Under the pieces are notes generated by a model. It searched no databases and was not told the DNA's origin. It was given only the letters and a program-made list of their open reading frames with translations. A DNA stretch of 64,000 nt from Arbacia lixula (lineage: Eukaryota > Echinodermata > Echinoidea > Arbacioida > Arbaciidae). Positions 7,772 to 51,300 of the stretch are shown here, piece after piece. Numbering within the stretch: the stretch's first letter is position 1; each line of letters starts with the position of its first letter. The stretch covers positions 13,680,179 through 13,744,178 of the forward strand of contig OZ022584.1 in NCBI GenBank assembly GCA_963669155.1, read 5' to 3'. A program made the position numbers and the translations under genes.

Positions 7772-7930
7772 TTATCTGGATGAGTTTGAGGCCCCTCTGT
7801 ATCTCCGACTATGCGTTGATGGAGGAACATAATCCTCATACAGGTCTCGGTAGATGTCACTTTCACTCAGCTCTTCACTGTCCGGCCTCATGTCAGGCTT
7901 GTGGGACAACAGCCATTTGGCAAATTTGGC
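7772..7930 (-). CDS. EIF2AK3: PERK exon 16: end of kinase domain and C-terminal tail
   Basis: [20 protein letters not shown] provides the RP motif closing the kinase fold. A tail with [19 protein letters not shown] ends in NSSR and TAA (7774-7772). The tail is shorter than the human one. The acceptor and first 35 bp of the exon are copied 149 bp upstream in the intron. Confidence 0.93.
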   Translation of the reverse strand, partial: AKFAKWLLSHKPDMRPDSEELSESDIYRDLYEDYVPPSTHSRRYRGASNSSR

Positions 7931-10900
7931 CTGAAATCAGACATGGACATTATGTTGTAAAAGATAGCAAAACATACAACAGAATACAAAATACAACAAG
8001 AAAAAAAAATAGAATACAAAAAGAACATGTTTCTTTTTAGATCAGGCCATTGGGACAACAGCCATTTGGTAAATTTGGCCTGAAATCACAAATCAACATT
8101 GACTTGTAAAAAAAAATAGTAAAACATACAGCAGAACATATTCTTTGTTCCCAAGCTATGTGAAGAAGTGATGTCTTACATTGTGCAAATTAATGAAATG
8201 AAGTCAGACTACAATGTTTTTCTTTTGTTAATTCATGAAACATACTGGAAAGCCTCAGCAAAATGAAGTTGATGGGACTAAAGAGATTAAAAAGAACATA
8301 TACAAAGAACAAAATGTAATTGGGGATAACCAAGATAAAAGATAACCAGATAAAAAAGAACATACACAAAGAACAAAATTTAATTGCAGATAACCAAGAC
8401 TCTTACTTTGCTCTTACCCGCTGCGCAAGGAAAGCTATTTGTGTGTTGCAGTAGTAACATGGTTAAAAATTACATTTCCATAGTCATGCTGTATTAGCTC
8501 AAAAGAAAAACTTGCTCTAAGTGACATGTTCCTTCTCAGTTTCATTATGTTTTGGTCGAAAGCAAGAATGTTTCCCTATATTCTTTGATAACAAACAAAA
8601 TGAACAGTATGTTGGGGAGGATTCATATTTCATGAGGGAAAAGCAGGAGATCTGGCTAGTTTAGTACAGAAAATATCTTATCGCCATCTTCATAAAAGGA
8701 ATGGTTTCACAACATCCCAACTCTCAGAATCCACAGACCGGTACTCACCTCTAAAGGCAGCTCTTTGGTGAATCTGTTGGGAAAGTCTTGCATCTTAGCC
8801 TGGCACATCACCTAACATCAAAGGACGAGCCAAACATAGTCAAACATCATCAAGGGAACTCTTATTCCAGCTCTACTCACAACACATGCTACATGTATAT
8901 GAGTGCCTCCTTCACACAATACTGTATTTCACATTAGTTTTGAATGAGGACTGAGCTTGGAAGATAACACATCTCTGCTGCCCTACTCTGACAAAAGGAA
9001 GCAAGTGACAAATCACTAAAATCTGGGTTATCAGTATTCTTAGATTGTACCTAGCATTCCCTACATACAGGCAAAATCTGGACAAGAAATATTCATCTTG
9101 CTGCGAGATATTCAATCTAACATGGTGTGGTGTTGCACTGATGCCAATGCAAGTGACAGACACATTTTGCTCATTTAGAAGAAAAGTCTCTTTTGTTAGT
9201 TGCTCCCTTTTGTCGGAGTAGGGCAGTGTGGGTGAGGGTGTGAAAAGGCAGGATAGCCCTTTAGCGGGCCAACAAAAATACAATTTTGCCCAAACCACAG
9301 GAAATGGAAGAAAATAATGCATAAGAACTTCCCTGCAATAATACGACTGGAAAATGACTTCAACTGGAACTATAGCAATCGCTAGATTTCAAGGGATTGG
9401 ATGGGTCATCCAGGGATGTGTTATGGAAGGATATGAAACAACTTTTTGCCCGTAACTTTCTTGAAAATTGCACAAAAATATAATAAGAAACATAGCTTCC
9501 AGAGACAAAACAGTGAATTAAAGATATAATTGCTTTCCAAGTTGACAGCAGCAAAAATGTCGGTGCCGCGCATGGGACATCAAAGCATTGTAGTGATTGT
9601 GGAATGCTTTTGACATTCATTAGCACGTTTAAGTATCCATACAGATGTTTGAATATATTATGCTCGAGTTGCCCCTCCTTCCTAACACATCCGTGGGTCA
9701 TCCAAAACCTCTCAGTTAGTGTAGCCTAGCGGCCAGAGACCGCTGTCTGTTATCATGAGCACCACAGTGCATGCATTCAATGCAAACAATGCCTGCTGCC
9801 TAACGCATCACACACTGACAGTGGCAATCCGATTACAGGGTTGCCGACCTTAATCAACACATTCCAGTAACCTAAAAGCTGAAAATCAGAATCTTGATGG
9901 AAAAAAAATTCATTATTTTCAAATAAAGACAAATAGAACAACCCATGAACTAGAACTTATGAAATCAATGTTTTGTATAAGACCTTCAGTATTCTTCTCA
10001 AATTTCAGTATGAAATAATGAAAATCAGTACTACTTGGCAGCTCTGCGATTAGGAATGCAGACTATGGTCGCAACATTTCAAATGAGAGTTTGTCACTTT
10101 TCTTGAAAAGGTTCATAAAATTATGACTGTGAGTTGTCATACATATTATCTTTAGGGTATACTACTGATTCCTGCCGAGTTTCATGAGTTTTACAAATGG
10201 GCTGCCTACTATGTCTGTAAGGTTTGACATACATGTACTTACCCAGCAAAACCACATAGTGGAATGTACTGTTTATTAAACAGACATATTTGTACTTACT
10301 GTAATACGCTCCATCTGGGTTGAAAACGGGTGGAAGAGTTCGAAGAAGATGAGCCCCAGTGAAAAAATGTCCACTTTGTGATCATAGTTTTGTCCTGAAA
10401 CCTAGGAAGAAAAACACAAAAAGAAATACTTCAGCAGCACATTTCTAGCTGTGATAAGCTACCAGCATAACATTTAACTCTTTGGGTGCCAGATAAAATG
10501 CTGCTCCATGTGAATTGTGTGCATTACCATTGAATGGTATACAAATAATGATTGTTTATGCATGCAATGGACAGAATATTTCATGAGGTGAAAGATAAAA
10601 AGATCACTGGATGGATCATTAATTTCATCTTTCTCTGAATGAAATATTCTGTCCATTGTACGAATGAAAAAAAAAAATCATTACTTGTTTTATATGACAC
10701 CTAGATATAGGCAAATTAGCTCGATATGCATATAGGCAAGTACAGCTGCTGAGCGGTCGCGGCTCGCATACACAAGACACGCGAGTACTGGTGGTCTCAG
10801 CGAGCGTGCAATGGACAATATCACATGGATCCAAAATTGCACGATGAATGGATCTAAAATTGCATGGTTCATGACGTCATTGTAAATAGACTCAATGATC

Positions 10901-13900
10901 GATATCAAACAACAAATGAAATGACAGGGATCTATCTTAATGTCATATAAAGTCACATGTGGTGCACAAAGGGTTACAATGGAAAATAATATTTTTAACC
11001 TCCTAATGCAACTGCACATCTAAGTCCTGAGATGATTACAATCCAATACACACATTTCCCATTTCTATTTTGAAAGTGTTTTTTTGCTTGGGCATTAGCA
11101 TTCATCCTCGGCATATTGAAATTGTGATCATGTTTCAGAAGGATTACACTTGGCAGGTCTAACACTGATCTCAGATCCAATAATAAAATTCATGATTTTC
11201 TAGTTGGAAAAAAAATATATAGATGAAAATGATCATATATGACTGCACAAAAACATGTAAATTCTTGCACTGTTCATTTACACTATGTTTTTTTTTTGTA
11301 TGGGTAAGATGAGGCTTTGTCTATACAAGACACACACATTGGAGCTGCTAGTACAGTGAAAACTGCTGTAGCAACCATCTGTGTTAAAAGACCACCTGGC
11401 TATCAAGACCAAATTTATTTCCATTGAAAACAAATTCTCATTGAATCATGTTTGAAAGAAATCTGTCCACATAGATAACACTTCTTGTCTCCCTTGAGTG
11501 AGCATCATATACAGGTTTCACTGTATTGTAAAAATGGAAGAGGACTATCCCATCCTAGTCCAGTAGTTTTTATTTCATGGATGGGTTTTGTAGGAGATTT
11601 AGCTGGGTCGGGCAGCAATCTTGGATTTGACAATTTAGAGATTGTCATATGCATAACTAAATGTTACAACTTAAATTGTTGACACTATAACCCCCCCCCC
11701 CCCCCCATTCGTTCCCATCTGGTTTGAATTGAGCACTTCACTCCATACCAAATATATCCGCAAATTAGCTAATTATGCAAATTTAAAAAAAAATTGCTCA
11801 AGGTCGCCAAGGTGGCATGTCAAGTTGAATTTTCTGGCAATATCCACGTGTCGAAAATTTCTACACGACTATACCTGTTCAGGACTCATGTACAGCTGCG
11901 TGCCAACTTTGCCCGTATGGAGGTGCAGTCCTGTGAAGCCCTCCTCCTCCCCGGCCGCCTCCTCCACCATACTGGTATCAATGGCTGTCACCAGGCCAAA
12001 GTCGCCCACCTTCACATGCCCATCCACCGAGAAGAAGATGTTGGAGGGCTGCAATACCAGAAGAGGTAAAAAGGTCACATGGGGTCTCATGTAATTTGGC
12101 CCCTGAAAAGAAAGCGACCACACAAGGAACAAGACCTGTGAACATGAGCTTTCCTCATAAAGCATAATTCACAGGGTGTTTATGTCATGACATCATGCAG
12201 TCTCAATAACTTTCACTTCTCCAACAGTAAAATTGATATTTTACCCTTGACAAGAGATATGTTCAGATATCACATAAATGAACGAGGGAGGGAAGGAGGG
12301 TGGGTGAGGAGATAAATTGATGGACAACCTGAAAACAGAATGGCTCTGGCCACTTTGCAGCCTAGGAATGAGTGGTAGCTGATTGCTCCTACATGTTCCT
12401 TAAGGTTGATGTGGATCATGCTACAGATGTGCACATAGCTGATTTGATATTTTGAGATAACAGTTAAACAAACGGGGAGCAGATGGACTGAAGAACAACC
12501 TGCAATCAGGATACCTTTGGCTATTTTGAAAGCCAAGGCGTTGCTCTTACCTTGAGGTCCCTGTGGATCATGCCACAGCCGTGCACATAACTGAATTCAT
12601 ATCGTCAGATATCAGTTTAACGAACAGGGAGCAGATAGACTGAAGGACAACCTGCAAACAGAATACCTTTGGCGTTTTTGAAAGCCAAGGCGTTGCTCTT
12701 ACCTTGAGGTCCCTGTGGATCATGCCACAGCCATGCACAAAGCTGAATTCATATCTTCAGATATCAGTTTAACGAACAGAGAGCAGATATACTGATGGAC
12801 ATCCTGCAAACAGAACAACTCTGGCCACTTTGTAGCCAAGACATCGGTCCTACATTTACCTTCAGGTCCCTGTGGATCATGCCACAGCCATGCACATAGC
12901 TGACAGCCTCCAGGATCTGGTGGAAGATGTGCAGCACCTTGTTCCTGTCTCGGGACAGTGTGTTGGTGCGCAGCCAGTCCTTGAGGGTCTCTTTCCTGCA
13001 CAGCTGCATCTGGATGTAGAGGTACAGCTTGGCCACCTTGGCAGGGGGCTGCCCACCCCCAGTGCCGCCTCTGCCCGGAGTCGAGGCAGTGCCGGATGCT
13101 GGACTCCTGCTGCCTTTGGACTGGGAGGTGCTCGAGGCCTGCGCCTGATGGTTTGCGTTCAAGTCCTGTGGACCTGCACTTCCTGTGGTCTCACTGTCTT
13201 TGACAATGTCTGTGCCACTGGAGGAATCGCTGTGAGTCCTGCTGTGCCTTGATGATCTGGTGGTGCTATCTGAATACTGTGGCTGATCGCTACACCCCGA
13301 GTCTTCGAACACGATCTGGAAGGATTCGCTTCGCTCGTAATCTTTGGTGTTTGGCTTGCCTGTTCCATAGTGGTGGAAGGGCACATCCGTCATCGTGCTC
13401 AATGAAGTGTCTGTGTTTTGCTCAGAGTTGCTCTCCTCCTCTAAGCTGCTGACAGTACACAGTGCGTTTCCACCACAGTCTGGCATCGCACTCTTTGAGA
13501 GCATATCAGTTTCACTTCCCATCCCAGCACTCTCATCCACATCTTCCGTTCCGTGAAACACGATGCTGAATGACCCGCTCTCCTCAAAGTCATTCCCAAC
13601 GGAAAAGCCCCCGCTCAACTCGCTCCCTCTCCCCGGAAATAGTATATCAGCTGCGACTCCCGACGCTCTGCTATCCCCCTTCTGGTCGACTCCTTCACTG
13701 AGCTGACCGCAGCTCCTTGTATCGTCAGGATCGTCTCCTATATCAAACCTGAGGATAGGGCTCCCTCTGGGTTTACAATGGGGGTCCATATTACTCCTGC
13801 CTCCTGTCTGTTGCAGAAACTGCTCTCTGTTCCTCACCAGCTCACTGTTCTTATTGAAGAATGCCGGGGTGCCCACGGAAGACTGAAGCTCGTTACTTGT

Positions 13901-16900
13901 GAGTCTGCAAACAAAGCAGAAAACATACAGTAACGTGAAATCCTGGGCAATTATCAAATCTAGGGCCCAAGCTCACAAGCATTGCTTCTGTTGTCTTTAA
14001 CTGTGACAGTGTTTGTATTTTAGCAATGTTACTTTACCTTGTATATGCTGCCAAATCTTTTAACAAATCAAGGCCATTCCCAATACAGCAACTCACTTCG
14101 AAACTTGTCTGAGCAAGCACAGAATGTTCCTCAGGGAGTAGAAATGGTATGCTTAAAATGTATCATGCGACAGTGACAATTGCAATGCATTTTGAACATT
14201 AATTCTACTGATAAAGTACCACATCAGAAACAGTTGATCATTATCATAAAAGGTCTTTCTAGACTTGTTCAGCTTCCGAGTATGAAAAGTATTCATGTTG
14301 TCATTATCTTATATACTTACAAGTCACCCACGAATTGCTTATCCTGAATATCTTGCCACCCAAGAGGGGGCTCTTCAAGCCAGGAGTTGAAATAACGCAC
14401 AATGCCAGAGTGATCCAGTATGGCCAACGTTCTCGCTTCTCTCAAGACTTTATCCCTTGCTTCAGGTCTGGAAAAACAACAAGTCATCCATGCATGTCAC
14501 CTTTGTATGTCTATTAAGTTCCTGTAATATATTGCAAAAGAAAGAATTATCTCCCATTGTTCACTTTTCCCAGCTGTTGACTACATTCCCAACAAGAAAC
14601 ATATTAAAGACCACATGAAACACTGACTGCGACCAATTATAAAACAAATTAAAGGAATGTGTTTCATATGTTTTTAATGGTTTTTTTTTGTCTTCTCCAA
14701 TGTATTGACAAGAACAATATTCAAAATGTTTAATTTGTGCATAGCTGTTTTCACAGCTGTTAACTGAAGTGCTAAAGGCAGTTGCAATAAATTTCTATTG
14801 CAACTTCTTTTGATATACAGATTAATGAGTGATAGCAATTGTACGGTCCGATATATATTACATCTGCCCAACATTGTTTAAAGAAAAATGTCAAGAGAAC
14901 TGGCTTGGAGACCTACCTGTTTGGGAGAGTAATCCTCTTGACTGCGTAGCTGTTCTCATCCACCTTGTTCTTAGCTCTGAAGACAATTCCAAAGCCCCCT
15001 TTACCCAGGCACTCCAAATGCTCAAAATCAGTCACATATCTGTTTGGAGAAATATCATATTTTATTAATCAGAAAATACTTGTCAACTCAGACTGCAAGT
15101 TCTGCACAAAGATACTGTTTTATTTATGAAGCAACAGAAAACATCTTAAAAAGCATACAATTTTAAAAAGGAATGAAAAAGGTTAAAAGGCATGCATACA
15201 CAATAAGGTTGCAGGCAAGGTTGAATAACGACTGAATTCTAACATATCGATAATCTGAGAAGCATATTATTTTGACACGCATCACAAAAGTTTCCCACTA
15301 AGTCCAAATCTGACTCTGTTTACACCAGAAAGCATTACCTCGATTTATGTTCTTGTACTTCATTGCTGTCTTGACGAACCGACATCTCTGCAGCCGAGTC
15401 TTGGACTTGATTGGCTTTCTCTCCCTCCGCAGCTTTCGCATATTGCTCAGCCAGGTGTTTTATCAAATGCTTTCGCCGTGGCCGAAGAACGAAGAAGAGG
15501 AACAGCTGCACACAGAGAGTGAGCATAACACTCGTTCCCAAAATCTCTCTCCTGCATGAAACACAAAGCATAAATAATACTGTAAAAACCAGGAATTCTT
15601 CCACAAGTAAATTATGTCACTACAAACAAATCCACCCAATGAATTGAAATCATCAACAACGCCCTGAACAAAGCATCATCATGAACGTATAACGCCACAT
15701 AAAAGCTGGTGGCTGTGCAATGCGTCATAGCATGCAACTCGAGCATGACTTGAATGTCAATACTAGTTACTACGGAATCCCTGATACACTTGCTTGTCTA
15801 GCCTGCTAAAAATAGCAGGATGGTTTTAACCTTGCGCTTGCTCTGTGTTGCACTAAAAGCATGATAATAAATGTTGAGTAAAAATAACCAGTTTTACAAT
15901 CATATATTGTAGACTTTTTTTTTTTTTGGGGGGGGGATAATTACTGGGCAAAAGTCATGGCTCCGATTGGAATTGTGTTCTTACATCTGTGAGTATCTTT
16001 TGGATAAATGCAATTATTGAATGATGATGTATAGCTCGATTTCCACAGACTAAGAAAAGGCATCATATAACTTCATCTACTTCGGAATTACATGTTCAAA
16101 CTGAACTTAGATGTATCACAGGGAATTAAGTACACTGCCCTTTCCATTGTGCTACATGTCAAAGAAAGAAGCCCTCAGAAAAATAAAATACGCCCCCCCC
16201 CCCCGACATCAATTTACCCTTTTCATTGTGCTAAACGTTAATCAAAGCAGCCCCAGGAAATACATTTTTATCACCCCACCCCCGGGAACATTTGGAAGGG
16301 TATCAGGAACATGTTATTTCATACCACCAAATCCAGACGGACACCCTGAAAAGAATCTGTAGTCCGCCATCTTCACTCTCGTTTGTGTCGCTCATGTGGC
16401 CGACGTGATGGGAGGTCGTATAGGCAGGGGTCAGCTGATGGAGCAGGTAGTAGCCGTTGTCTGGGTTGGGACGGTGAACATACAGAGTAATTGCATGAAT
16501 TAACATTACTCATACTGCAATTTTTTCCATAAGGTGGGAAGCGTTGTGGTGTAGTGGTTGTGAAGGATGATTGAAGATCTCAAGATCTCACAGATGTGAA
16601 GGGTACAGACCTGAGGTCTTTCACGCCATATTTAAAACCTCGTACTGTATGTTGTGACCAAGCACTCCTGCCAAGTCCTCTGTCGTGTTAAGTATACTTT
16701 AGTGAAAAGCCTAAAATGATGATTTCACCATTTCACAATTCCAGCTTCAAGCATGTCCAGTCAATGTAGGGGCAAACAAGATGTGCAATTTCAAAAGCTA
16801 GGAGGTCTGCATCGGTCAAAGTTGCATAGAAAGTAGAGGCCAAGTGGCCTACCACGTGACTACAGCTTTTGAATTTGCTCATCCTGTTGCTCTTTGACCA

Positions 16901-19900
16901 ATGTCGACCCACCAGCTATCCTGATGCCCCTATATCGCTTGGACATACTTCATGCTGCCAACTGGACATGCTGATGCAGGAATAGTGAAATGGTGCATGG
17001 TGAAATCACGTTGCGCTTTTCCATTAATTGTACTTTATATACAGTCTGCCTTCACATGATGCCAGTCAAAACTCACCAAAGTGTACCAGTTCTACACAGA
17101 GAAGAGTAGCACAACACAATGTGCTTGCTTAACTCCAAGTTGTTGGTTTCTAATCCTTCAAAACACATGTAAGTGCTTCCACGGGGTTGGGGCAATTTTT
17201 GTGACATACCACAACTCCAAATCCATACCTTTTTCCAACCAGGCAAATATAGTCCAATAATGGCACGAGCAAAAAAATGGGGTCCTATCCAGTATAATTT
17301 CTCAAAGACCATGGCATATTGCAATTTGACTTATGAACATTTCTTGTCCACGTAAAAACAATATGATGTCCATGTGGTAGATTTTTCTATGCCTCTTGCT
17401 TCAAATCCATAAAAGATTTCAAATTCTAACATCTATAACTGAGAAAAGAGAGCATTTTTCTTTGACAGCTCAAAACTTAACCTCATCTGAATTGATATTC
17501 ATGGTGAACTGCAAAGGTTGATAGTTCCTTTACATGGACATTGCATGAAAACTTTGCCCAAACCCCATGGAATGACCCATATGTTATATTATTACACATA
17601 CAAGCCACTTTTTTTATACAATAAAACCTTGTATTAATTATCCTTCCAGAGGTTTGCTTGCTGGCATGCAATATTGTTAGCATATTAGCTGTCCTATGTA
17701 TTTTATATCAATGGGGAAAATGAATATTGTTACAATATTCAACTCCACCATGACAATTGCACATGGGTTTGATTTCGCGCGCACATTTTTTTAATATGCA
17801 CGAGGCAGAATTGATACAGGTGAGTAAACCCCTATTTATCTTTTTCTTGTCTTTTTTGTTTAATTAAACCCTTTGCTGTTTTCGTGGAAAGTGGTTTGTA
17901 TGTATAATAATAATATTGGATTTCTTTCGTGGTATATCAGATATACCACTTAAGCACATTTAATATTATAGAAATATATATTCATAAAAAGTTTGGCAAA
18001 AAGGCCTATCCCTGATGTTCACTTCCATGTGGACAACAATTTGTACCACCTTTGGTTCAGTTTTGGAATTATCTAATCTTTTTTCAAAAACTCACCAAAG
18101 GGGTACTGGTTCCAGACAGAGACCTCGCTGCTTCGCTCTGCTGCCCTCTCTCCCTCGCTAGCGCGCAGGTTCTCGCTGTTCCTGGCCCCGACCAGCAGGG
18201 GGGTCCTGGAGACCGAGGTGTAGGCGTAGGGGCGCCAGCGGACCTTGGGTGCTAGCACGCTGCCGTCCTGAGGTTGGGCCTGGGTCTGGCCGTTGTAGGC
18301 GGCCCAGGCTGCCTGGGATACCTCAGATTGGGTGCCCGGCGAGGGCTGCACGTACAGCTGGTTCTTGTGGGTACCTGGGGTCACAATGGGCGCAATAGGA
18401 TTAGAACACGTACAGCTGGTTCTTGTGGGTACCTGGGTTCACAATGGGCGCAGTAGGATTACAACATGTGCGGAGAGTAGCTATACATGTCTGTTGCACC
18501 ACTTTCCTTGCAAACAAACTAGCATACATGTACATTAACTCCTGAAATCCACAACCCATTCAGAAAAGGTGAACGACAATAAGTTTGGCCACAAGCCCAT
18601 TACTGCTGTTTGTCTCCTCATTGTGACCCATCTTTCTATCACATTTGGTTCAAATTTCTTTATATTGAATTTTATTTTAAGGGGTAGACACTTTGGCAAT
18701 TTGTTCAACGGTAACTCATCTTTGGGCTGGGATCGATTTGACTTTAGATTCAATCAGCTCATTCTAACATTTAAATGATAATGGCTCACTGAAGATATAA
18801 TAAAAACAAATAAACTTTTTCCCATTTTGTGCAAGATTCATTGGCTTTTGACCTCACATGATTCGGGCCAAAATTTCACATACTTCAGTGATTCTGCTAT
18901 TGCATAAAAGGACTAGAGACGGACAACCAGATGTAACATTGTCCGTCCCATTGGGTGATAACACATGTCTCTGACAAAGAATGGAAAAAGTTTGATTATA
19001 CTAGTTTTCTGAATTACAACTTACCAACAAAGAGCATAGGGTGAGATGCTTCAGAGAAGAATGGGGTCATTTGAGGTTTGTCATCAGTCAGCCCAAGAGT
19101 CGCTGGTTCAAACAGGTCAACCTGGCTCACAATGCCATCCTGGATGGTCCACGCGTTGGCGATGCAGCTCTCCAACTGCAAAGGATCACCACATGTTTCA
19201 AAAGCAATGTGTAAAGACAGGGTATCCCGTTTGCAATCGCCAACAACGTTCAAAGTCCATTTTTCCCACTTTGCATGGTTGGACAATTCATTTGCTTGGT
19301 ATGGCTCTCTCCCATACTGTCCTGTCATTTGGGTCAATGTTGGTAGTGTTCCAACACTTTTCTGCAAAAGTCATGAAAATTTGGCAGGAAGCATCAGTAA
19401 TCATGGCTTCACGAACCTTTTCATGAAAAGTGAAAAACCATCCGTCTTAACATTTGAAATGTCCCATTTTATATCGTCTAGAATCTTCATTCACATACCA
19501 TATCGCAGCGCAGTGTATGGTGCACCATGGTGCTTCCGTTTCAACGCATCACCGCAGAGCGAAAAGCCACAACATGCGCTGTTTGGTCTCCAGTCTCTAT
19601 GCTATAGAAACCACTAGGTTTTGGACGAGCCGCCTGAACCAATTTGCAATCTAGCAATCAATGAAATTCCACTCGAAGTCAGTTTCTACTTCTATTATTG
19701 GGAGGAAAGCTCTTTCCTTCCATTTTCCATGTTTTTTTTTTAATTTGACCTGCTAAAGGGCTACACTGTCTTTAAGTTAAATCACCATTGTTAATACAGG
19801 CCAAAGCCTCTGGCCACTTCTTCAAAGGAAACATGATAAGATATTTCGTAGAACAAACCTGGTGGGACCAGAGCAGCTGTCTCCCACTTGCTCCCCCAAG

Positions 19901-22900
19901 GGCAAACACCGTCTTGGCACTCATGTCCACCTTCACATGTGGGGCATCGTGGTCGAAGTCCTGCTCCTCATCGTCCACCATTTCGCACATCACTTCTTCC
20001 GTCATCGTGCCTTCCTCCTTGGTAAGAGGGACTCCTTCCAGGAAGCTCACATCGTGCTGGCCTACGCTGAAGTTCCATCTTCGTCAGGAAACAACAACAG
20101 AATGGCGGCAAATGTGAATAGAGTCTGGAAAAATACAGTGTTTCAAGCTCTTTTCTTGTTTCCACATCAATGGATGGTTGTGAATTGAGTTTTATGAAAA
20201 TATGCATGGTTTGGTAAACATTATTCACAATACCAACAGCTCTATTTTGTTACATAAAGAACGGTATATTTATCAATTTTTTTTATCAAATCTGCTTTAG
20301 GAATGCTTAAACATCGTCCACTCACTCTAAAAGTTGCAGTGATCACATCAGTATTGTCCTGTCTCTCTTTCCAATAAAATCCATTGATAGCTAACTGATT
20401 AGCGCACTTACATTTATCAATCGAAAGCAATCAATACTATCACAATCACATACAATTGAAACACGGATACAAATCATCATTTCACGTCTAGGATAGGAAT
20501 GCCTGCAGTAAAAAAAAATACATGTAGGTGGCACCAGGAGATTTTTTTTTTTTTTTTTAAATAGCTGTCAGATCTAATCTTCAAGTCTGGCATCATGAAA
20601 TGGTACTATCTAAAGCATGTTATGCATTATACTCATGTCATTTCTTTTTTTTCAGAGCTCTTTTTTCATTTGTGAGGGCTCTTTCTTGCTTTGCGTGGGC
20701 GGAATCACCCCTTTAGCCCCTGTAAAATGTTTCCCTCTAGGTGGCATACTTCTCTGCACCGTTCCTTTGATCCACAGCTCTGACTGTCTGCCGCGTGTGC
20801 TGGACGACAATGATGTCTTGGTCATCGGAGGCTTCATCACCATAGATCTGACAGCCATCGGAGCCACAAATGTAATGCAGCTGCAGGGATGGAGAATATT
20901 ATTTGTTTTATAAGACAGGTCAGAATATAAAGGTTATTACAATTAGGTTTACCGGTACCTTGGAAGATTTTGGTGCATGTTCCATATGAAAAGAATTTAC
21001 ACTACGAAGAAATCAAATGGCTGCTTCCACTAGTTTCTATGATGCGACGCTCCAACATGAACGGTGTAACACTTAGGCCTAGAACTTAGCCCTAAATTTT
21101 GATGTGAACACATTTACAGTTTATGTTGACTCGACATGCCATCATAACTTTTTGAAGTGTTTCCATTGGTTAAATCCTCAATATCTTGGTCCAAGAGAAG
21201 CTGGAATTGCGGATCGTCCGTGAAGGCAGCCATTTTTTTCCCATGTTAAAAACATGCTCAATGATTAAGCGCAAATAGGCATGCTGCTAGCTTTCGCGCA
21301 TACACCGCGTGCTGGATCAGTCGGCCCAGAGTTCTAGCAACCTAGCTTGCATAGAGTTTGCACACAAATGGGAAATGCTGCACGAAAATTGCACAGTGCT
21401 GCACAATTAATGCACGGCTGGAATAATTAGTGAAATCAATACGGTGCACAGGAAGGTTATAAAGTGAAGTGATTGTTTTGCTGCACTTATGTGCAACCAA
21501 TTTCATCATCTAATATCCTCACTGTGCGCTGCATTACTTCTGTGTCACAAACTTCAAACTGTTTATTGTTGTGTTATACAACATGTCTAAGTATGAAATG
21601 TTTCACTCAAATTCTTATAAGATTATACAATGCTTGCCTGTTGCACTTGCGTAACAACATTTATTGTCCTGTCGGTGGTAATGAGAAAATGAAGGTTTAA
21701 AATGAAGGACTTGATTAAGCATTCAGCCATTGGCTTCAGTACATCGTTGAGACTGTCTTTGAATGTGTGGTGAAGACCTATCAACATTAAAATTCAACGA
21801 TCAGAAAGATTTGGGGAAATAAAAAATCAGGGTGATCTCTATCAAATGCACACAACCTACTGACAATAATCTATCAATGATCAGGGAGATTGGGTGATGT
21901 GATGAATTATAGTATAGTAATATTGGTCTATTTTCAGGGAGTCTCCAGCAACTGACTGGGCAGCTCTGGTAATTAAGGGAGAAAAGACGAGGCATCAGAA
22001 ACTTACCTGCCCAGTTCTTGCATTGATGCCGAATGTGGTGGTCTCTTTGCCCCCCACCATGACCGTCTCCTCGTTGAGTTTGAAGGAGGCACTGAGCAGG
22101 GTCTCGGCTGTAAACGGGACGGCTTCCAGCGTCTCCCCATCCCACCGGAATAGCCCACCACTCAATGACGGGATCACCTTGTACCTCCCTTCTGGCCCCA
22201 CAATCTGGAAACATATATTTAGTATATATTTCTAGTTCACGGATCAAGACATGGAAGCAAATACCGAAGAGTCTCATTCAATCTGACTCATGAATATTCC
22301 TGAGTCAGATCAAATGAGACTCTTCTGTATTAGTTTCCATGTTATCATGTCTTGATCCTTGAACTAGAAATAGTTTACGTGATTGAGTCGGTGCCCAATA
22401 AGCATTAGATTGCAGGTGCAAATCCCATCTGGTTCCAAGATTTTTTTCTGACTTGTTTTTTCATTCCTTTACAGGATGGAGCATACTATTCTTCTAACTA
22501 CGAGGTGTATTTGTAAAATGGAAATTACCCCACAAAGCCCTATCACTAATATCATTGTTTATGTTTGAAACACTGTTTTGTAACTAAGGACAATACTCTT
22601 CAATCATTTTACCATATTGCAGTACATGTATATCCTAACAATAACGTGTATGAAATCTCACAGTCACTGTTTCATGAAGCTTTTCAGAAAAAAATTAAAG
22701 GCTATCACTCTTTATGTTTAAAAGGTAACGACCATTGTATTGGAGCGGACAGTGGCACAGTGAGCCACTGTACGCACCAATCGTATCAGCGCGGAGAGTG
22801 CGAGTTAATGTGCATTCATGCAATTTTGCATCAATGCACACAAAATCTATAATGGAGCATTTCATCTGGCTCATTAAAGGGGTAACCCTTTGTATGCCAA

Positions 22901-25011: not shown

Positions 25012-25228
25012 CCACCATTTGTCGCACTGGATCTGTTGGAGGAATGAAGTGCAACATATAGACACAAGTTACGCTGTGGCGATTATTCCCCCCACATATT
25101 TGGGCGGACTTCTTCGACAACCGCTCCAAAATACGTGTAACTTTTTACCATCCCACACATATCGTACGATACGCGTACGTACGTACAAGTTGCATGCAGT
25201 ATAGTGCGTTGCGTTGTTGATATTGCAC

Positions 25229-25235: not shown

Positions 25236-25241
25236 TATTAT

Positions 25242-27843: not shown

Positions 27844-27878
<35 letters not shown>

Positions 27879-27905: not shown

Positions 27906-27910
27906 AAGGG

Positions 27911-29514: not shown

Positions 29515-29585
29515 ACATTCTGCTTCTGCTTCTGCTTCTGCTCGATACTGTACAAACGCCTCAGTGATGTGGCTATCACGTACAG
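29515..29585. repeat. CTTCTG-repeat block, inverted copy at 62380-62456
   Basis: (CTTCTG)4 followed by CTCGATACTGTACAAACGCC then TCAGTGATGTGGCTAT. The same sequence is inverted at 62385-62456. Confidence 0.75.
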
Positions 29586-29587
29586 AT

Positions 29588-37000: not shown

Positions 37001-38878
37001 TACATGTAAAAGGAACATCAGAGATGTTTAGACTGCTTAGATAAGAAATCCCCATTTGTCATTTTGCCTAACAATATGAGCTGGATTGCAACACTAAAAT
37101 CACTTTGAAACAGAAATTTTGTAATCTATCAATGTATCTGATTTTTCACACAACTTCTTAGAGGTAAATTTTCCATCAGCATGAACTATCACTGTCAATG
37201 ACATCACACCCAGTCGGAGGCAAAGTTTGCTGCACACTTTGAAAGAGATAGTCTCATTAGGAAGGACTCATTTTATATAGTTTGAACTCGTGTTGAACAT
37301 GTGTAGGCCAAGCCTTGTCACACCGACACCTGTTCATAGACTATGGGCCTGAATGGCGAGATTGCAAATGAAGCACTGCTGCTACTGTACAGAGTAATAC
37401 CCCATTAATCATATCCTTCATATTATTTTTGCCCACGTAAACCCATGACACATTTTTTTTGGACAGAGCAGTAGTGCTTTTTGAATGAGGGGAGGATGAG
37501 GATGAGGTTTCTATACTCACTCTCTAGTAGCGGGACTGCTGTGTGTGTCAGGAAGTTTTGAAGTCCGCTCGGCTACCGTTCGGGGGATATCTGCCGCGTA
37601 CCAGTCTCCACGCTGGGGAATAGGTGTTGCATTTTAATAGTGAACTTGTTTAAAGCCAAGGACTACTACTACTACTACTGCTGCTGCTTGCTTCAAGTGT
37701 ATTGCCATTTCTGTGTTGAGCCTGACTGGATTGCATGACATTAGCAATCAGGAAATCAGACTTGGCAAGAAGTAGACAAGGCGATTGCAGTCCAGACCCT
37801 CCCACTGTTTCACGGTGGTTTTCTTTTTTACCCGTGTTCGACACGGGTCCATATCGTACATGTATCTGTGTCCACATGTGCAGAGCAGTGGTTTCGGAGG
37901 ATACGCCTATCTGCAGTGTTTTTTTTTTCCCAAGCTGTTGTAACACGATTGTGAACAGTTGGCAACTTCCTGGGTTAGATGTTATCTAGCAGAGTGTCTT
38001 GTTGTTTTTAGCCCATCACATCCTGTGCGGACACAGAGTGCTCTAGAACAGTTTGATATCAGCAGATGAGAGAAAATATCTCTCTCTTCTATGTCATAAC
38101 TGTTAGTGTGCGGTTGCAAACACGACTAGATGATCGTACAAGGCATCACTGGATTAAGAGCTTTAGACATTAACAGTGATCCTCACGCCTTTAAATGGAT
38201 TAGTGGATATATCTGGATTATCTCAAGCTGACAATACTCCTGTACATTGTGTGTATACTATTTGAGTGGATCAACGATCAACAATTTAGCAGGAGACTTG
38301 CGTCAGGAGTCGCTGGATGTGTTCAAGGAGCAGGGTACATGCATAAGTGTTTAATTCTTGATGTCATTATCATAGTATGCTGGCGGTTGCCCAAACATTG
38401 GCTTGGCTTCATGAGATACGGAGGACCTGCACAATGCATAGGACGTTGAAAGTGTTGTGTAAACTGCACACATATCAACTGTAACTCCTTTGGAAGAAGG
38501 TGATTGTTGCGCAAGCTTAGTTCCTGTGTCTGTTGTAATGATCGTTTGTGTTACTTTTCGCTACATGTGCATACTGTGACCTCCATTAGCAAATACAGCA
38601 ATGGATTAATCAAGTATTAGATAGGAAATACTGTCTGATGGACTACTAATGCACTTGTGTGATTCAATTGTGTTGCCTGTTACTGAAACCAAGTGTACAG
38701 CCAATCGTGGAGTACTTAATCTTGGTACCGCGCCAAGTCAAAGATGACAGTGCTGTTAAGCTGGCTTTAGTATTTTCCGTGAAGCCTGCAGTACTTGTGA
38801 TCCGTCAAGTGCATTGTACTTGACCACCAAACTGATTGTTTGTGTTTGGGAGAGTATCGTTTTGGCGTACGCACAGCA
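34078..38878. other. EXOC4 upstream region and probable 5' UTR
   Basis: No supported coding exon apart from the MITE copy at 35461-35588. The last kilobase has a run of (TAC)n near 37665 and no clear TATA box. The EXOC4 transcription start cannot be placed from sequence alone. Confidence 0.5.
35461..35588. mobile_element. Palindromic element, copy 5
   Basis: TGGCCCTGTTGTATAAAACT with ACCATTGATGGTAAC on the left, GTTACCATTAATGTTAAGTT and CTATGCAACAGGGCCC on the right. The shortest and cleanest full copy of the family at 4996. Confidence 0.85.
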
Positions 38879-39343
38879 ATGATGGACGACGCCAGCCCTC
38901 CCACGCGGCAGAGTCGCAGCTTCAAGAATAAGCAGCTGAACCGCCTCTCGGGCGTCTTCAAGCCCATCGGCAGGAACAGGCCCAACAGTACCGGGGGAGG
39001 CGGAGGGGGCGCCGGTGCCAGCGCCAGCACCAGCGCCAGCACCAGCACCAACGCCAGCCCCGAGGGCGCTGTCCGCAGCCTCTTCCGCAAGTCCAGCATC
39101 ACGGGCCACTTCTCCCGCATGAGCAGCAGCAGCAGTAGCGGCAGCAGCAGCGGGGCCAGTAGCACGCGGACAGGTATCATCTTCCGAGGGGGGTCCTCCC
39201 GGGACAGTAAGAAGAGGCCGGCCCCACTCCCTCCCACCGGTGGGGCCTCAGGGGGAAGTTCCCCCTCCAGGTTGAGTCATAGGTCGTCTGGCTACAAACC
39301 GGTGCTCAAAGTGGTTAGGACCAGGCCCAAGCTGAAAGGTCTG
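38879..39343 (+). CDS. EXOC4: EXOC4 exon 1: long low-complexity N-terminal extension
   Basis: Two adjacent ATGs at 38879 and 38882; the second has the better context (A at -3, G at +4). The 155 residues hold a basic segment ([20 protein letters not shown]), a Gly/Ala/Ser/Thr run, a poly-Ser stretch, and a Pro-rich [10 protein letters not shown] that resembles an SH3 ligand. The exon is much richer in GC than its flanks. The donor CTG|GTAAGG is phase 0 and fits exon 2. Human EXOC4 has only about 20 residues before the shared core, so this may be lineage-specific or an alternative first exon. Confidence 0.7.
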
Positions 39344-42300
39344 GTAAGGTTATTGACGCACCACCCTTGCCTTTTGAAATGTCTGATGTTGAATTTTGTA
39401 CAAGTTTGTAGTGTATATTAGTTACCCAGGGTATCCCCTTCAGTGGTTAAGCACTGTTTTTTTTCCAGGGGGCCCTGCTTTGACATTTTGACATTCAATG
39501 CAACATGGTTTACATAAAATACAGTCAAATATGTACGTGGGCCGTTTATACTGTATTACAATTTTGGACACAATATTGCATCTCTCTTGGCCCTGGAGAT
39601 GAACAGCAATGTGAATGAATAATGTAGCATCAGTAATTTGGTCTTTCTTTAAGCAGTCGCCAAAGTAGCATTGACCAATTCATTTGGCATTCTTCAAGCT
39701 CAGTCTTGAGTTGTCCGCCTGACAACACGTACAGCTTGTAAAAGATGTCAACAGTGTGTCAAAATATATCTTGTTTGGAATGAATCTTAAGAAGAACACT
39801 TCTTTTTGAGAGAACACCAAATACTTGTTTTCACATGTCGTTTGTGTACGCTCAAACTCTAAAAATACAATTAAAACTTGTTAAAGTTCTAGAAATCAGT
39901 CCATACTATACATGGCTCCAGTTTTGCATGGGAATGAGGCACCCTACCAGTTTTTAATATGTTTTACAAATCCCTGTAAACTTGTGACGCTTTATTACAT
40001 AATCATTTAATCTGGGTCATTATTATGACCCCTCTTCTTCATAATAAATTCTACTCTGTAATTATGCTCGATTTCGTAAATGCCTTTTGTAAGTCAAATC
40101 CCATCAAAGTTTGTTTTCCTCTGCTTGGGCGGCAAACTTGGCCAAGACATTAGACATCAATTCACAGGAACACGATTAAAGCGCACAGGGACTTCAAGCG
40201 CCTGATTGAAAGATGGCTTGGCCATCAAGAGTCTGTCTGCCAACGAAAATATCCTTTTTCTGTCCCCGTTGTTTGCAGTTCAATCATTTCACTGTATCAT
40301 TTCACTGTATCATGTCTTACAAGAGGGCAGCTATATTTCTGCCATTGCGACAAACTCTCCATTACAATGGCTTATTTTACTCCGGAGCTTGTGTTTATTT
40401 CATGCAGATGTACTCCTTGGCCATCAATACATGATCATCAATATGAATTTGATTTTTTTTTCAGATGCACATGGATGTCAGAAACTTCAATCTTAATTCT
40501 ACATCACACTTCCTTCTCCAAGTTCTTGCATTTACAATGTAGTTTGAATAAAGGCTTGCAGCTGAAGCCGTAAAATATATCCTGATCTCATGGTATGTTG
40601 CTGCAAAAAGGGGCTCAGTATTGTAAAGTTTTATCAAGATTGCTTTGAAAAAATATGGGTTGGTTTGTGGTTATTGAACCAGCTCTGCTCTACCAACCTC
40701 TAATAAAATGAAACACCAATGATTTATTTTACTTACATAAGTGAGCACTTCTAAAGAACATAATAATTGTCATTGTGACATAAACTTGTGCATGTTCCAC
40801 TTCTTATTGTCCTGTTTTATGAAAAAGTGAAAAAACCCCAAAAATGTTTCAAATGAGGACTTCTAGGGAAGATCTATACTACCTGAGACTGTGATAGATA
40901 CTTGTGCATGTATTCTGCTTCTTATTGTCTTATTTTGTGTCCCTCTAATTTCAGTCAGGAACTGGGCTGTTGATGTCAGTTATTAGGACATTATCTGCCA
41001 GGTAAGTTGTGTTTTTTTTTTCTTTGCTCTCTTTTTTTATAGCTCATAAGACAATCACAAACAAGCAACAAATTGGAGTACATGTCTGTCTGTGAACCCA
41101 TGAAGAGCTAACACAATTGTGTATTAAAAAAGTTAGCTCCTACAGATAGATTTATCATTATTCTTGCTACTTATAAATTTCTTGAACACCTAATAGATGC
41201 ATTGTGCCATAATGTGTGAGAAAGCTCATGGCGACAAGCCTAATGTTCATAGAAACACCATTGTGTCAGGTATAAAGGTCACTGACTCAATGTCTGTTGG
41301 CTTTGAGCCATATGCATAGAGGATAGCGTGCAGAATGGACTGCCAATTCACATTACTATTATGCGTAGTTTTGGCAACTTTGTCTTAAGTTCTTTGATTT
41401 AAGAAATACCCTTCAGTACTAATGTGTGGCTTTATCTGATGAGAGACAAGTGAAAACAATTATGAGTATCTGCTTGGAAGGTCCAGTTTGGTTTGTTGTG
41501 ATTTGACAATAAAAGGATATTAACATCAAAATAGCCAGTGCAATTTAATCACATGTATACAGTATACTAAATGAGATTGTATGGAACATATTATTGAGGT
41601 GAGAACTTAAGATACAAACTACAAAAGCAAATGCTGTTCCAATGTGACAAACGTTTTTTGAACACCTAATACTCCCAAAGTTGTTTCATAAAAGTCTACC
41701 AATGATAACCCCCAATGTTTGTTTGAGTTTTGCTTAATAAAGCTGTTTTCCTGATCTAAAGAACATGATTTGGGAAAGACAGCCGGAGAAATGCCCACAT
41801 ACTTGGCTGACGAGATACAGTAACTTTGTGTCCTACTTTAATAAAGTGCAGTATTATTTTTAATAGTTAGCCCAATCGGGACCTAGTACCACAACAAAGT
41901 GCTTTGGAGTTTTAACTTTTAATAACAATATGACAAATCATACAAGAGGTAAATCAAAGAGTGTACATTTCTGTACTTGTACGATAAAGTCATTGTTCTA
42001 ATAAATACTATTTAGAAAATAGCAAAACTTTCGGGTAACACCATGTGGTTGTATTCTTTCGGATAATTGGCCCACTTATGGGGTGAAGAAAGGAAAGGAA
42101 AGTGAAAAGTGAAAAGGAGAGGTGAATTTTTATATTTTATAACACTTACACAAGACTATTTTTAGCTTTAGTTTTCGGTGTTTTAAACCGAAAATAAATG
42201 GGATGGAATGGAGGTAGAAGAAGAGGGTGGGGGTTGATGAAAGTTGTGAACTAGTCACAAAGTAGTGATAAAGAGAAAAGAAAAGAAAAGAAAATGAGAA

Positions 42301-45300
42301 AAGTGTAGAAAAGTTATTGTCAGTTCTGCAACTAACTATAGATTTCTTTCAAAATCTGAAAGAGGGAGTATCAGTCTCGACGTTTCGGGCAGTGTGCTCT
42401 GTCCGTCATCCGGAGAATAACTCGAAGAAACTAACGAGCGCGCCGGGTATTTATGTGATCCGAAGGGATCCGAAATAACCCGAGTGTCCGAAATCAGCCA
42501 ATAGGAATAGAGCGTTTCGGCGCGAATGTGCTGTGTGCACTAGAGCGTGAAACAGCTGAATAGGTGCGAAAGTGCGGCGCGAATGCGCGGTGTGCACTGG
42601 AGCGTGAAACGGCGCGAAAGTGCGGCGTATTCAATTCCCCGAGCTTTTCGGGTAGGTCGTCGTCCCGTGTGCGTTGTGCGTGGTGGTGCTGCCGGTGTGC
42701 GTGGTGAAGAAGTGGCATCCAGATATCGTTGATCACAAGTCCGCTCTCCTGTGGTACCGTGTCGTGTCCTGTGGTACCGTGTCGTGTTGAAGACACGACA
42801 CGGTACCACAGGAGAGCGGACTTGTGATCAACGATATCTGGATGCCACTTCTTCACCACGCACACCGGCAGCACCACCACGCACAACGCACACGGGACGA
42901 CGACCTACCCGAAAGCTCGGGGAATTGAATACGCCGCACTTTCGCGCCGTTTCACGCTCCAGTGCACACCGCGCATTCGCGCCGCACTTTCGCACCTATT
43001 CAGCTGTTTCACGCTCTAGTGCACACAGCACATTCGCGCCGAAACGCTCTATTCCTATTGGCTGATTTCGGACACTCTCGGGTTATTTCGGATCCCTTCG
43101 GATCACATAAATACCCGGCGCGCTCGTTAGTTTCTTCGAGTTATTCTCCGGATGACGGACAGAGCACACTGCCCGAAACGTCGAGACTGATACTCCCTCT
43201 TTCAGATTTTGAAAGAAATTTATAGTTAGTTGCAGAACTGACTATAACTTTTCTACACTTTTCTCATTTTCTTTTCTTTTCTTTTCTCTTTATCACTACT
43301 TTGTGACTAGTTCACAACTTTCATCAACCCCCACCCTCTTCTTCTACCTCCATTCCATCCCATTTATTTTCGGTTTAAAACACCGAAAACTAAAGCTAAA
43401 AATAGTCTTGTGTAAGTGTTATAAAATATAAAAATTCACCTCTCCTTTTCACTTTTCACTTTCCTTTCCTTTCTTCACCCCATAAGTGGGCCAATTATCC
43501 GAAAGAATACAACCACATGGTGTTACCGAAAGTTTTGCTATTTTATAAATAGTATTTATTAGTACACTCTCACCATGGAAACACTCAAAGAACATTTAAA
43601 GTCATTGTTGTTGATATGTATCATCTTCACAGTAATTTTCAAATGTGATATATGAAGATCAAATTATCGTTACATTTTCAAATTGGCAACACACTGGAAA
43701 GTTTCATTTTATGCTTTTACTCATAAGTTATTGCTCTAAATTGTATTTTCTTATGTTATAAATGTTTATTTACATTGGAATGCTTGCTCTGTTTTACAAG
43801 AAGAATCTAGTTTTTTTTTATAAAAATGGTGTTTCCACTAATAAGGGCAAGAAGTGACCCATTTTCCTCTAATAGGGCATTGGTCTTGAATGGGTTAAGT
43901 CGTTGAATCTTGTGCAAACATGTAGACCTAACTGGTGTTCGTTCCTGTGTCATCCCTCTTGTGTTTGTGCTGCAGCGAGGATGAGCAGCAGAGAGGTGTG
44001 GAGAAGGCGAGACTGGAGAAAGCCTATCGGGAGTGTGACAGGAAGCTGGACAAACTCATCACAGGTCAGTGGCATTTCAGTCTCAACTCAGAAGAAGCCG
44101 TTTTTATGCCTCCACCACGAAGTGGCGAGAGGCATGTTTTCGGGTTGTGAAAATGCCATAAATGCCAATGGCGTGAATGCGTTACCAATGGGAACCCCAA
44201 AGCTTGTCCGAGGTTTGTCTGAGTAGCAACAACTAATAGATTCAAAGTGCATTCCATCCCTTGAATCTGAACAACAAGACACAGGTGAATGCAATATCGC
44301 GTTACTACGCAGTTAGGGGGAAAGTTGTGAATACATTAGGAAAATGGTCTATTGTTGACTTCCGTACAATCTATGGCATTTTGCCTTCTCTGATGTCACT
44401 GGAGGCGTGCATTTTTTTTCAAATTTTCGTCGAAATGAGAATTTATTGCGGCAAATGAATGTGAAATTCTTTTTTAGTGGATAATTTTACATAGATTAGT
44501 GGGAACTTATTTTTCTAATTTAGTTACCCTTTAAATCTCCACTCAGAATAAGGCGTTTTCATAATCTATTTATAGATTCCATCCTTTACTTGCAGCATCA
44601 TGTCAGTGGTGTTTAAGTCTCAACTCAGGATGAGCCGTATTGGTAGTCTATTCATAGACGTTTCCCTAACTGCATAGTAATGTGTCCATGGCTTTCAAAT
44701 CTCAACTCAGAATAAGCTATTTTTGTAATCTATTCATAGATTTTGCACTAACTTCAAAGTAAGGTACAGTGTCAGTGATGTTCAAGTTGTTTACTCTATT
44801 AATAGATTTTGTCCCAGCTGCATAATAATGTGTCATTGGTGTTCAAGTCTAAAATCAGAATAAGCTGTTTTTGTAATCTATTCATAGATTTTGCAGTAAA
44901 CTGGCAGTAATGTGTCAGTGGAGTTCAGTAAGCTTCATAGATTTTGCAGTAAAGTGGCAGTATTGTGTCAGTGGCATTCAGTAAGCTGTTTTTTGTAATC
45001 TATTCATAGATAGATAACTGACAGCGATGCATCACAACCTGTATTCACCTGTATCTAGTGATTCAGTTTTAATTGCTGGTGTACACTCTGAATACTCTGA
45101 ATCTATTGGTTGTTGCTGGTCAGGCAAAACTTTGATGAGCTTTGTGGTTACCATTAGTTACTTAAAGACAGCCCGTCCCTTTTTCAGATCACCACAAAAC
45201 CATCGAAACATTGGCAAAACATATAGAGAATGTTAGCAAGCTGTATATTCATAATTTGAAACTGATACGTAGTGTAAAATTCAAATAATGCACGTATACA

Positions 45301-48300: not shown

Positions 48301-51300
48301 TACCCCAAACCAAGTATCTTTCTAAATTTTGGATTATGAAGTTTGAATTGCTTGAAGTTTGAGTGCTAATAATACAAATGCAGTATGGGCACAACTGGGT
48401 AACATTGTTCGAATGCACTATACCATTGATCCTACATTAGATGTAAATGTACAGTTCATCTGGCTGATAACATTATCGTTATCACCAAGGATGATCTAGA
48501 CAGGATATGCTCAACGGCTGCCCTCCTGCTCAAAGAGGCAAATCTAAGGGCGTTGGTGCCTTTTCACCTCAGGCTTATAATTCACATTCAATCATGTAAC
48601 ATGATGACAGATACTGTACTACTGAACATACTTGTAAGCCGTGCGGTAGTTTGAAGCACTTTGTGGCACTTTGTGGCAAACTTATCCTCAATTACAATCT
48701 TCTAGTCACTGAAAGAACTTACTGCTTATAATTCAACTGTACTTGTATTGTTCTTGTGCTTGTGGATTGGAGATTCTTTCCATCCTTGTATTAACAATGG
48801 ATCAATATGTGACCTATGACATCTACACAGTTCTGAGTAGAGATTGTATTAAATTTATGTTTATCGCCCCATCCACAGTGAACTACGACACCCTGACCAA
48901 GACCATCCAGGCCTACAGTAGTATATCGGGCCGCATTAAGAATGCCCGTGAGCGGACCAAGCTTGTCAAGTCAGACCTGCTCTCCTGTAAGGAGCTGCTG
49001 CACTGCCGCAGGGATGAGCTCCGCAAGCTGTGGCTGGAGGGTATCGAGCAGAAACAGGTCCTGGCCCTGCTAGACCAGATGTAAGTCTTTTTTTTAAAGT
49101 ACTTAGTCCTATCCACTTAACATCTAGTCCTGGCCCTGCTAAGTATTTTTCACAGTATTTAGTCTTATCCACTTAGCATCTGGTCTTGGCCCTATTAGAC
49201 CAGATCTAAGTCTTTTTCATTGTTCTAAGTCTTATCCACTTACATGTATCATTTAGTCCTACCATGCTAGACCAGATGTAAGTCTTTTTCCCAGTACTAG
49301 TTCTTATCCACTTAGCATCTGGTCCTTGCCATGTGAGACCAGATGTAAGTTTTTTTTCATAGTACTTAGTCTTATCTACTAAGCATCTGGTTCTGGCCCT
49401 GCTGGACCAGATGTAAGTCTTTTTCATAGTACTTAGTCTTATCTACTAAGCATCTGGTCCAGGCCCTGCTGGACCAGATGTAATTCTTTTTCATAGTACT
49501 TAGGCTTATCCACTTATCATCCGGTCCTACCTCTGCTAGACCAGATCTAAGTCTTTTTCAGAGCAGTCTCAGCCATGAATTGCATTAATTAGAAGCAATG
49601 TCCTGCCCCTGCTACATTCGATAGCATTTATGGTCACATGATGGCAGGAAATGACACTGCTATGGGTTTAGAAGCTATCAAACTGCACGGCAGGTTCCTG
49701 GCTTTCAACCAAATTGCTAGGATGTACATTATTGTTGAACAGATGAAAGAAATTTGAGCCCCGCCCAGCCCAATTGCACTGTACAATTAATGTTCTGCCT
49801 GTCGACAGAACTTTTCCTTCCTACTTTCTATTTTAGAGTCGCAGACGAAATAGGTCTGGAAGCAATCAATTTCTATTGCCAATCAAAAGTTTCTTGCTTG
49901 TCCTATTAAAAGAGCAAGTTCATCTGAGATGCAAACAGAAGCCATAGGTTCATGTCTTTTGGGCAACGATGTTATCCTACTGTTTTACGCATCAAAAACT
50001 AACCCTCCAGATACAGGATATGACGCATCAGTAATAATGTCATTGTGGTCACATGTTGGAGTTTATTCTGGGTAGGGGTCCTGCCTACCAGTTAAAATTA
50101 GGATTAAAGGGTGTCGGCTTTTTTTGGTACCCATCATCAATATCACTATGGATTGCTTGGATGTTAAAGATTCAGAGTTATTTCTTGATCTGGCGTTGAG
50201 GCACTTTGGCACAAATGATACATGGTCTCATGCTGTACGTGCAGAGCAGCATCTTCCCTGCGGCACAAAGGTTTAAAGGACATTAATACCCACGATTCAA
50301 CATACAGTACATGTACATGCTTAGGTGCTTTGGTACCATCCAATGGTACTAAACATACATGAACATCAGATTCTCCCAAAAGATTATGTAGTTAGAGGGA
50401 AAAGAGAGTTAATTCCAGAGCTTAGGGAACTTCCAGGGTTGTAAATTTAGGAAGCTCCTTTTGTTTCCTGCCTGCCTAGTTGATTTTAAATGCATTTCAG
50501 TCTTCAAATCAAGCCTGAAAGTATACATGCTGTAAATCTCATGTATATCTTCTATGGATATTTCTTCCTTTTGTATACATATACATCCTCTGTTTAAATA
50601 TTGTTAGCTGCTGTGGGCTAATTATGTTTCACATTATAATGTCATTGTACTATTGTGATCGTGCAAAAATGTTATTACCGTTATAATCATGTGGTAATAC
50701 AAACTACATGTATGCCGTTTTTGTGTGTGTATGTCCGTACGTCTGCATGATCTCGTTAATGAGATACATGTAACTCATGAAACATACAGTGTATGACAAA
50801 ATGTAATCAAAATTTGTACCATGGTAATGTGTGACAAAACATTTGTCCTTACATATTTCTTATACCCTCACAGTGTCATTGCAAAGTTGAGAAGAAATCT
50901 CACTGTGTACATCACTTACCTGTGTCAATTTTTGCAATTTTGAAATTAAGCAAACATACACATATGCACATGTACATAATGTACATGTACAGTATGCAGT
51001 GCGCACATTCATGCATTGAAATGTTGACTCATAACTGCAGGTCATGTGTGCTTAATTTAATGTAATTGCCTTATCCATTTAAAACTATTATCGTGATCAC
51101 ATGATATTGATGTCACCATTTGTTTTTTTATGACCAGAGATCTGAAGTACATGCAGAATTATTGTTCTTTTATTTTTGCATAGCCCAGGTCGGTTTTTGA
51201 GGAGAATAAGTGGCAGGGAAGGAGAAAAATCTTCAAGTGTTCTTTATGTTTAATAATAGCAAGGTCTATAAGATACCATTTTGACATGGAGCTTTTCCAT

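Follow-up and report, generated by a model that had tools for sequence, protein, structure and literature searches.

We analysed a stretch of 64,000 nucleotides of the sea urchin Arbacia lixula genome (assembly GCA_963669155.1, contig OZ022584.1, forward-strand positions 13,680,179 to 13,744,178; hereafter the window, numbered from its first letter), in which two neighbouring genes, PERK (EIF2AK3) and EXOC4 (Sec8), carry splice boundaries that have been copied in tandem. The observation of copied splice boundaries is confirmed as real, and the clustering of tandem duplications at exon edges recurs in an independent sample of exons from the same genome. We consider it probable that the arrays of both the window and the sample are minisatellites of the 'mirage' type, i.e., local tandem duplications that straddle or abut exon-intron boundaries, evolve in a nearly neutral manner and are born with a bias toward exon edges. 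The initial annotation of the window knew of no named process giving this pattern; nevertheless, boundary minisatellites had already been given the name 'mirages' in the accessible text of two studies on amphioxus (PMC3087553, PMC3902484). The kind is therefore already known; what is new, to the extent of our literature search, is its occurrence in this host phylum and a measured excess at the edges of exons.

In the window, we scored each of the 53 splice junctions of the PERK and EXOC4 models by the best local direct copy that extends across the boundary, with offsets between 20 and 700 bp. The scores were cleanly bimodal, with five junctions at 31 to 53 and the remaining 48 at 15.5 or less, and the 99.9% point of this type of score in three block-shuffled windows was 22; the array caller returned no arrays on shuffled tiles. 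Exon and intron sequence is thus contained in tandem copies at four junctions clearly and at a fifth marginally, donors and acceptors both being affected. The PERK exon 16 acceptor (E16a, 7930/7931, minus strand) lies in a two-copy array at 7893 to 8136, the second copy being located 149 bp upstream, with its AG kept and 38 exonic nucleotides copied (junction score 42.5). The PERK exon 12 donor (E12d, 12859/12860, minus strand) is present in four copies at 12303 to 12903, three of them downstream with a period of 152-157 bp; 44 exonic nucleotides are copied, the fourth copy lacks the GT kept by the other three, and the score is 40.5 (offset 157). At the PERK exon 7 acceptor (E7a, 18374/18375, minus strand), a two-copy array at 18341 to 18469 has its second copy 58 bp upstream, the copies share 26 identical exonic nucleotides and the score reaches 53. 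The marginal case is the PERK exon 2 acceptor (E2a, 23121/23122, minus strand), where three copies, two of them upstream with a period of 35 bp, occupy 23112 to 23226 and score 50; only about 5 exonic nucleotides are copied, so that the array abuts the boundary rather than spanning it, and the third copy has no AG. The largest array belongs to the EXOC4 exon 4 donor (X4d, 49080/49081, plus strand), with eight copies at 49057 to 49563, seven downstream at a period of about 67 bp, one of them truncated; GT is present in 5/8 copies, 24 exonic nucleotides are included and the score is 31. These copy numbers agree with those of the initial annotation. Periods do differ widely between the arrays, as had been claimed, but the lower limit is 35 bp (range 35-157 bp) and not 38 bp. 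Of the five arrays, all but that of PERK exon 16 are also reported by Tandem Repeats Finder.

Two further boundaries had been proposed. The EXOC4 exon 3 donor (X3d, 44064/44065, plus strand; boundary and array together at 44057 to 45034) was described as a more worn case, and this description holds: an array 0.5-1 kb downstream, at 44.5-45.0 kb, aligns with it over 49 columns, of which at most 8 nucleotides are exonic, the likeness being mostly to the first intronic bases. The suggested detached copy of the PERK exon 7 donor (17067 to 17100, minus strand), in contrast, was not shown to exceed the chance level, since it lies about 1 kb off and, with 53 junctions under test, 7.3% of 600 intronic 50-mers picked at random equalled its score of 21. 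This test is a weak one, because some of the random points fall in arrays and because 2.7-8.5% of the points equal even the clear junctions; it would single out neither X3d, which also scores 21, nor the exon 7 acceptor.

Whether boundaries are hit more often than other positions depends, within the window, on how chance is defined. In a founding-unit test, the unit of each array was placed randomly in the genes, with purely exonic placements excluded; five of nine arrays extend across a junction, compared with an expectation of 0.98 (p 0.001), and inclusion of weaker arrays gives 5/12 against 1.40 (p 0.007). Requiring at least 15 bases on each side of the junction leaves 4/12 against 1.07 expected (p 0.015).

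The independent sample was drawn from the same genome (607 Mb, 590 contigs) and consisted of loci with exons of the myosin head or the kinesin motor family, 60 of them from the family searches (30 of 73 matches for myosin, 30 of 126 for kinesin) and 20 more chosen by coordinates. Eight of the 80 loci were dropped, five for overlaps (L027, L058, L061, L047, L066) and three as the second copy of a gene on contig C3 (L035, L036, L038); two of those dropped, L066 and L038, carried hits. This left 72 non-overlapping loci, in which 108 junctions had an acceptable splice score. Plain BLAST self-comparison misses short periods, and a dedicated array caller was used instead. Ten of the 108 junctions (five donors and five acceptors) lie within called tandem arrays, compared with 2.84 expected from the density of units (p 0.0007), and the units are 71-180 bp long. 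Before loci were dropped, the batch counts at a score threshold of 18 were 5/44 against 1.06 expected for myosin and 6/41 against 1.28 for kinesin, one of the latter being doubtful; the extra myosin loci gave 2/21 against 0.81. Locus L046 is to be treated as doubtful, being a hit at threshold 18 only. The positions of the arrays point in the same direction: among the exon-facing ends of 43 arrays, 10 fall in the exon-side 100 bp, 7 in the 100 bp of intron nearest to the exon and 26 across the following 1300 bp, so that 17 ends lie within 100 bp of an exon edge against 4 expected (p 1e-6, background 2.0 per 100 bp). Hence, the claim that tandem duplications cluster at exon edges is borne out by sequences outside the window.

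The main rival to this reading is ascertainment, according to which duplications are random and those at boundaries merely remain recognisable for longer, since purifying selection freezes their exonic copy. Several of our observations fit this explanation. In 11 of 14 aligned pairs (E2a left out), identity is higher in the exonic than in the intronic part; across the 14 pairs 9-101 exonic bases are copied, compared with about 5 in E2a. Such a difference in identity is expected if the exon is constrained while the copy is not. Moreover, with exons masked, the PERK exon 16 array falls to a score of 18.5. On the other hand, the other four window arrays are still detected (score of 20 or more) after masking, and in their intronic parts junction arrays show no lower identity than other arrays (p 0.20; 6 versus 37 arrays that had sufficient intronic sequence, from the first 60 loci), therefore the junction arrays do not look older. 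An excess is also seen in the first 100 intronic bp alone, outside the exons (7 ends versus 2, p 0.0045). Finally, the effect of exonic constraint should stay at or below about twofold, while the point estimate from the sample is 3.5 (10 / 2.84). We thus think that ascertainment can account for part of the excess but would not readily produce the accumulation of array ends in the first 100 bp of introns, and we regard it as an unlikely account of the whole.

A number of results nevertheless weigh against a birth bias toward exon edges. A per-position test in the window, which is also what ascertainment would lead one to expect, placed 5/53 junctions in sequence of high score where 3.99 were expected (p 0.37 at threshold 25) and was null at all five thresholds tried, although its expectation is inflated because the intronic copies of the same arrays add to it. 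The claimed clustering at edges within the window is accordingly upheld by the founding-unit test (p 0.001 to 0.04, depending on the choice of arrays) but not by the per-position test, and the upper value, 4/12 at p 0.04, is what remains of the former when the marginal E2a is left out. In the sample, the excess shrinks as the cut-off of a pure similarity score becomes stricter, from 11/108 at threshold 18 (p 0.0002) to 9/108 at both 20 and 25 (p 0.0026 each) and 8/108 at 30 (p 0.0087), and the extra kinesin batch contributed 0/11 junctions from eight further loci, against 0.05 expected. The sample is small, covers two gene families and includes several loci per gene, so that its junctions are not fully independent; they were, in addition, called by a weight matrix trained on the window rather than from RNA. 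Exon constraint that slows the decay of the exonic part could by itself produce up to the twofold excess mentioned above, and splicing, instability and the birth bias are here inferred from the sequence of one genome rather than directly seen.

It was also suggested that the copies are retained because they are useful, i.e., that spare splice sites are kept for robust splicing or for the regulated use of alternative sites. The splice dinucleotide is indeed kept by the best-scoring copy in 14 of 15 pairs when L046 is set aside (14/16 with it), but this retention is about what neutral identity would predict, and beyond the best copies GT is missing from one copy in the E12d array and from three in the X4d array. 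The exonic parts of the copies decay as if unconstrained. Multiples of three are not favoured among the offsets (5/15 pairs, L046 set aside; 6/16 with it), therefore most uses of a copy would shift the reading frame. We see no sign of retention for usefulness, given offsets free of frame bias and copies that diverge like neutral sequence; these data suggest that selection on the copies is not required, and selected redundancy appears to us very improbable.

The recurrent association with splice sites, at ten sampled junctions in two families and five in the window, could also be brought about by introners or other transposable elements inserting at such sites. Introners are dispersed families, and the arrays described here share with them the location of repeated sequence at splice sites. 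They differ in that the E12d and X4d arrays, the two that were searched, match their own locus alone in the 607 Mb genome, and unit lengths vary between loci. Judged from these two arrays and from the unit lengths, the arrays are, as proposed initially, not copies of one transposon, and we give almost no credence to an origin by insertion.

An assembly artefact, or haplotypes collapsed or expanded during assembly, might be suspected from the unplaced contig C29, which resembles the myosin region of C3 (88 to 96% identity over long stretches) and carries a donor array with 6 copies (L038) against 7 on C3 (L087). Two haplotypes or a recent duplication may account for these regions. Both contain an array of one and the same myosin exon donor, at reverse-complement coordinates 1686-2492 of L038 and at 1683-2631 of L087, and 6/6 copies in the former and 6/7 in the latter keep an identical exon end, the GT and the next bases. 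Against an artefact, the copies within an array differ from one another by substitutions and indels, and the likely source assembly was built from PacBio HiFi reads (PMC11310861, in its accessible part); this explanation seems to us hardly credible. A comparable arrangement in the other family is found at L056 (C21:15808950-15812210), where the start of a kinesin exon is arrayed upstream of the exon, and therefore profile positions of about 66-89 appear in four rows of the family search that come from a single stretch.

The structures that resemble our arrays most closely are those of amphioxus. As far as the available text of PMC3087553 goes, the name 'mirages' was introduced with amphioxus Adh3 for tandem repeats across exon-intron boundaries; in the globin genes BflGb6 and BflGb9, boundary repeats with units of 150-160 bp contain AG/GT in many, though not all, copies, and copy number differs between two BflGb6 haplotypes. 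The same text reports that reverse transcription PCR suggests undisturbed splicing in mirage genes, calls the generating mechanism unclear and proposes a role in intron gain. Lancelet PGBD5 and troponin C are further cases in the accessible part of PMC3902484, and across the two papers the unit length varies by gene, from 10 to 160 bp (PMC3087553, PMC3902484). The sea urchin arrays are similar in that they hold exonic and intronic sequence at donors and acceptors, vary in unit length by locus (35-157 bp in the window, 71-180 bp in the sample) and mostly, but not always, keep AG/GT (14/15 best copies, with 5/8 copies in X4d and 3/4 in E12d). They differ in that the host is an echinoderm and not a cephalochordate, the taxon being no part of the structure, and in that they occur in several unrelated genes at a measurable frequency and are known from genome sequence alone. 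The Rogers model (as cited in PMC3087553) explains intron gain through tandem duplication of AG/GT proto-splice sites; here, too, the duplicated unit includes splice signals, but existing boundaries are copied within existing introns and no new intron was seen, intron positions not having been compared with relatives. Human internal tandem repeats in segmental duplications (PMC2812944) likewise combine minisatellite expansion with an effect on gene structure, in a different setting. Among the papers listed by our literature search, which mostly did not extend to subscription papers, there was no echinoderm mirage case and no genome-wide survey, which is no proof that none exists.

The echinoderm origin of the sequence can also be read from the genome itself. 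The mitochondrial contig has the order 16S, cox1, trnR, nad4L, cox2, trnK, atp8, with the 16S-like stretch (read by eye) on the plus strand directly ahead of cox1, and AAA occupies positions of cox1 at which Asn is conserved; we take this order, together with AAA as Asn, to be the echinoderm arrangement and code. Sea stars have an inversion in this mitochondrial region, and a sea star was dismissed as the source on account of the placement of the 16S-like stretch. Amphioxus was rejected as well, on the mitochondrial evidence and because it possesses many GFP-family genes whereas a search of the genome for this family gave no match, the absence of a match alone being no proof. The G+C content of the window is about 0.39, and the published Arbacia lixula assembly is described in the accessible part of its report as 607.91 Mb in 22 chromosome-scale scaffolds with 39.33% G+C, sequenced with PacBio HiFi (PMC11310861).

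If the arrays are mirages, their history may be pictured as follows. A local tandem duplication would arise at a rate that is higher near exon edges, possibly owing to the step in base composition or to chromatin at these edges, and the resulting array would then expand and contract. With the splice site next to the exon left intact and in use, the array would be tolerated and persist, and the extra copies, removed as part of the intron, would evolve almost neutrally. The observed layout is compatible with such a course: units measure 35-180 bp overall, one copy adjoins the exon and the extra copies are on the intron side. Copy number, moreover, is 7 in one and 6 in the other of two closely similar myosin gene copies.

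The gene models on which the junctions of the window rest were built by placing exons with tblastn from human proteins, splice sites then being set by frame and GT/AG. PERK (7772 to 25011, minus strand) has 16 exons encoding 1167 amino acids, and the first 12 exons of EXOC4 fall within the window (38879 to 63345, plus strand; 605 amino acids); both spliced models are open, and they confirm the exon numbering used at the outset. Exon 1 of EXOC4 (38879-39343) is the least certain of its model. The luminal part of PERK matches EIF2AK3 chains in PDB at 8.2e-59 and its exon 12 the kinase family in Pfam at 2.6e-9, while EXOC4 exon 4 matches Sec8_N in Pfam at 4.7e-9; EXOC4 found no match in PDB at a cut-off of 0.001, and scans of the window with Rfam (gathering threshold) and for tRNA genes found nothing.

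The introns of EXOC4 contain other repeats as well. Intron 2 harbours a near-perfect palindrome of 1.7 kb (41917-43643) with arms 94% identical and a 20 bp tandem near its centre, which appears to be a fold-back element or a long hairpin. An ACT-rich 27 bp minisatellite of about 53 copies occupies 58644-60037 in intron 8 and is overlapped by a plus-strand open frame of 442 codons, probably a product of composition alone. In intron 11, an 87 bp unit is present twice at 62801-62971 with 98% identity, clear of the junctions, a young and purely intronic duplication. Elsewhere in the window, self-complementary elements of about 150 bp at 5000-5146, 7187-7335, 7589-7723 and 35462-35587 are probably miniature inverted-repeat transposable elements, and a 70 bp inverted repeat (98.6% identity) links 29518-29587 with 62388-62457, 33 kb apart. 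Outside the window, exons of the protein tyrosine phosphatase domain are clustered on contigs C5 and C27 (at least 151 matches), which suggests a lineage expansion.

We tentatively propose, with a confidence somewhat below even, that in echinoderms, as in cephalochordates, exon edges are true mutational hotspots of tandem duplication, with roughly 1 in 10 junctions accompanied by a recognisable copy of its own splice site and with a standing supply of material from which splice sites and introns could newly arise and boundaries could shift. In the literature that we searched, mirages have so far been confined to a handful of amphioxus genes; their presence in a second deuterostome phylum at a measurable frequency would make their origin testable with chromosome-level genomes. 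If duplication does strike exon edges more often than other parts of a gene, spare splice sites would be made constantly, and these would constitute a concrete and testable source of intron gain and boundary shifts as well as a systematic hazard for gene annotation.

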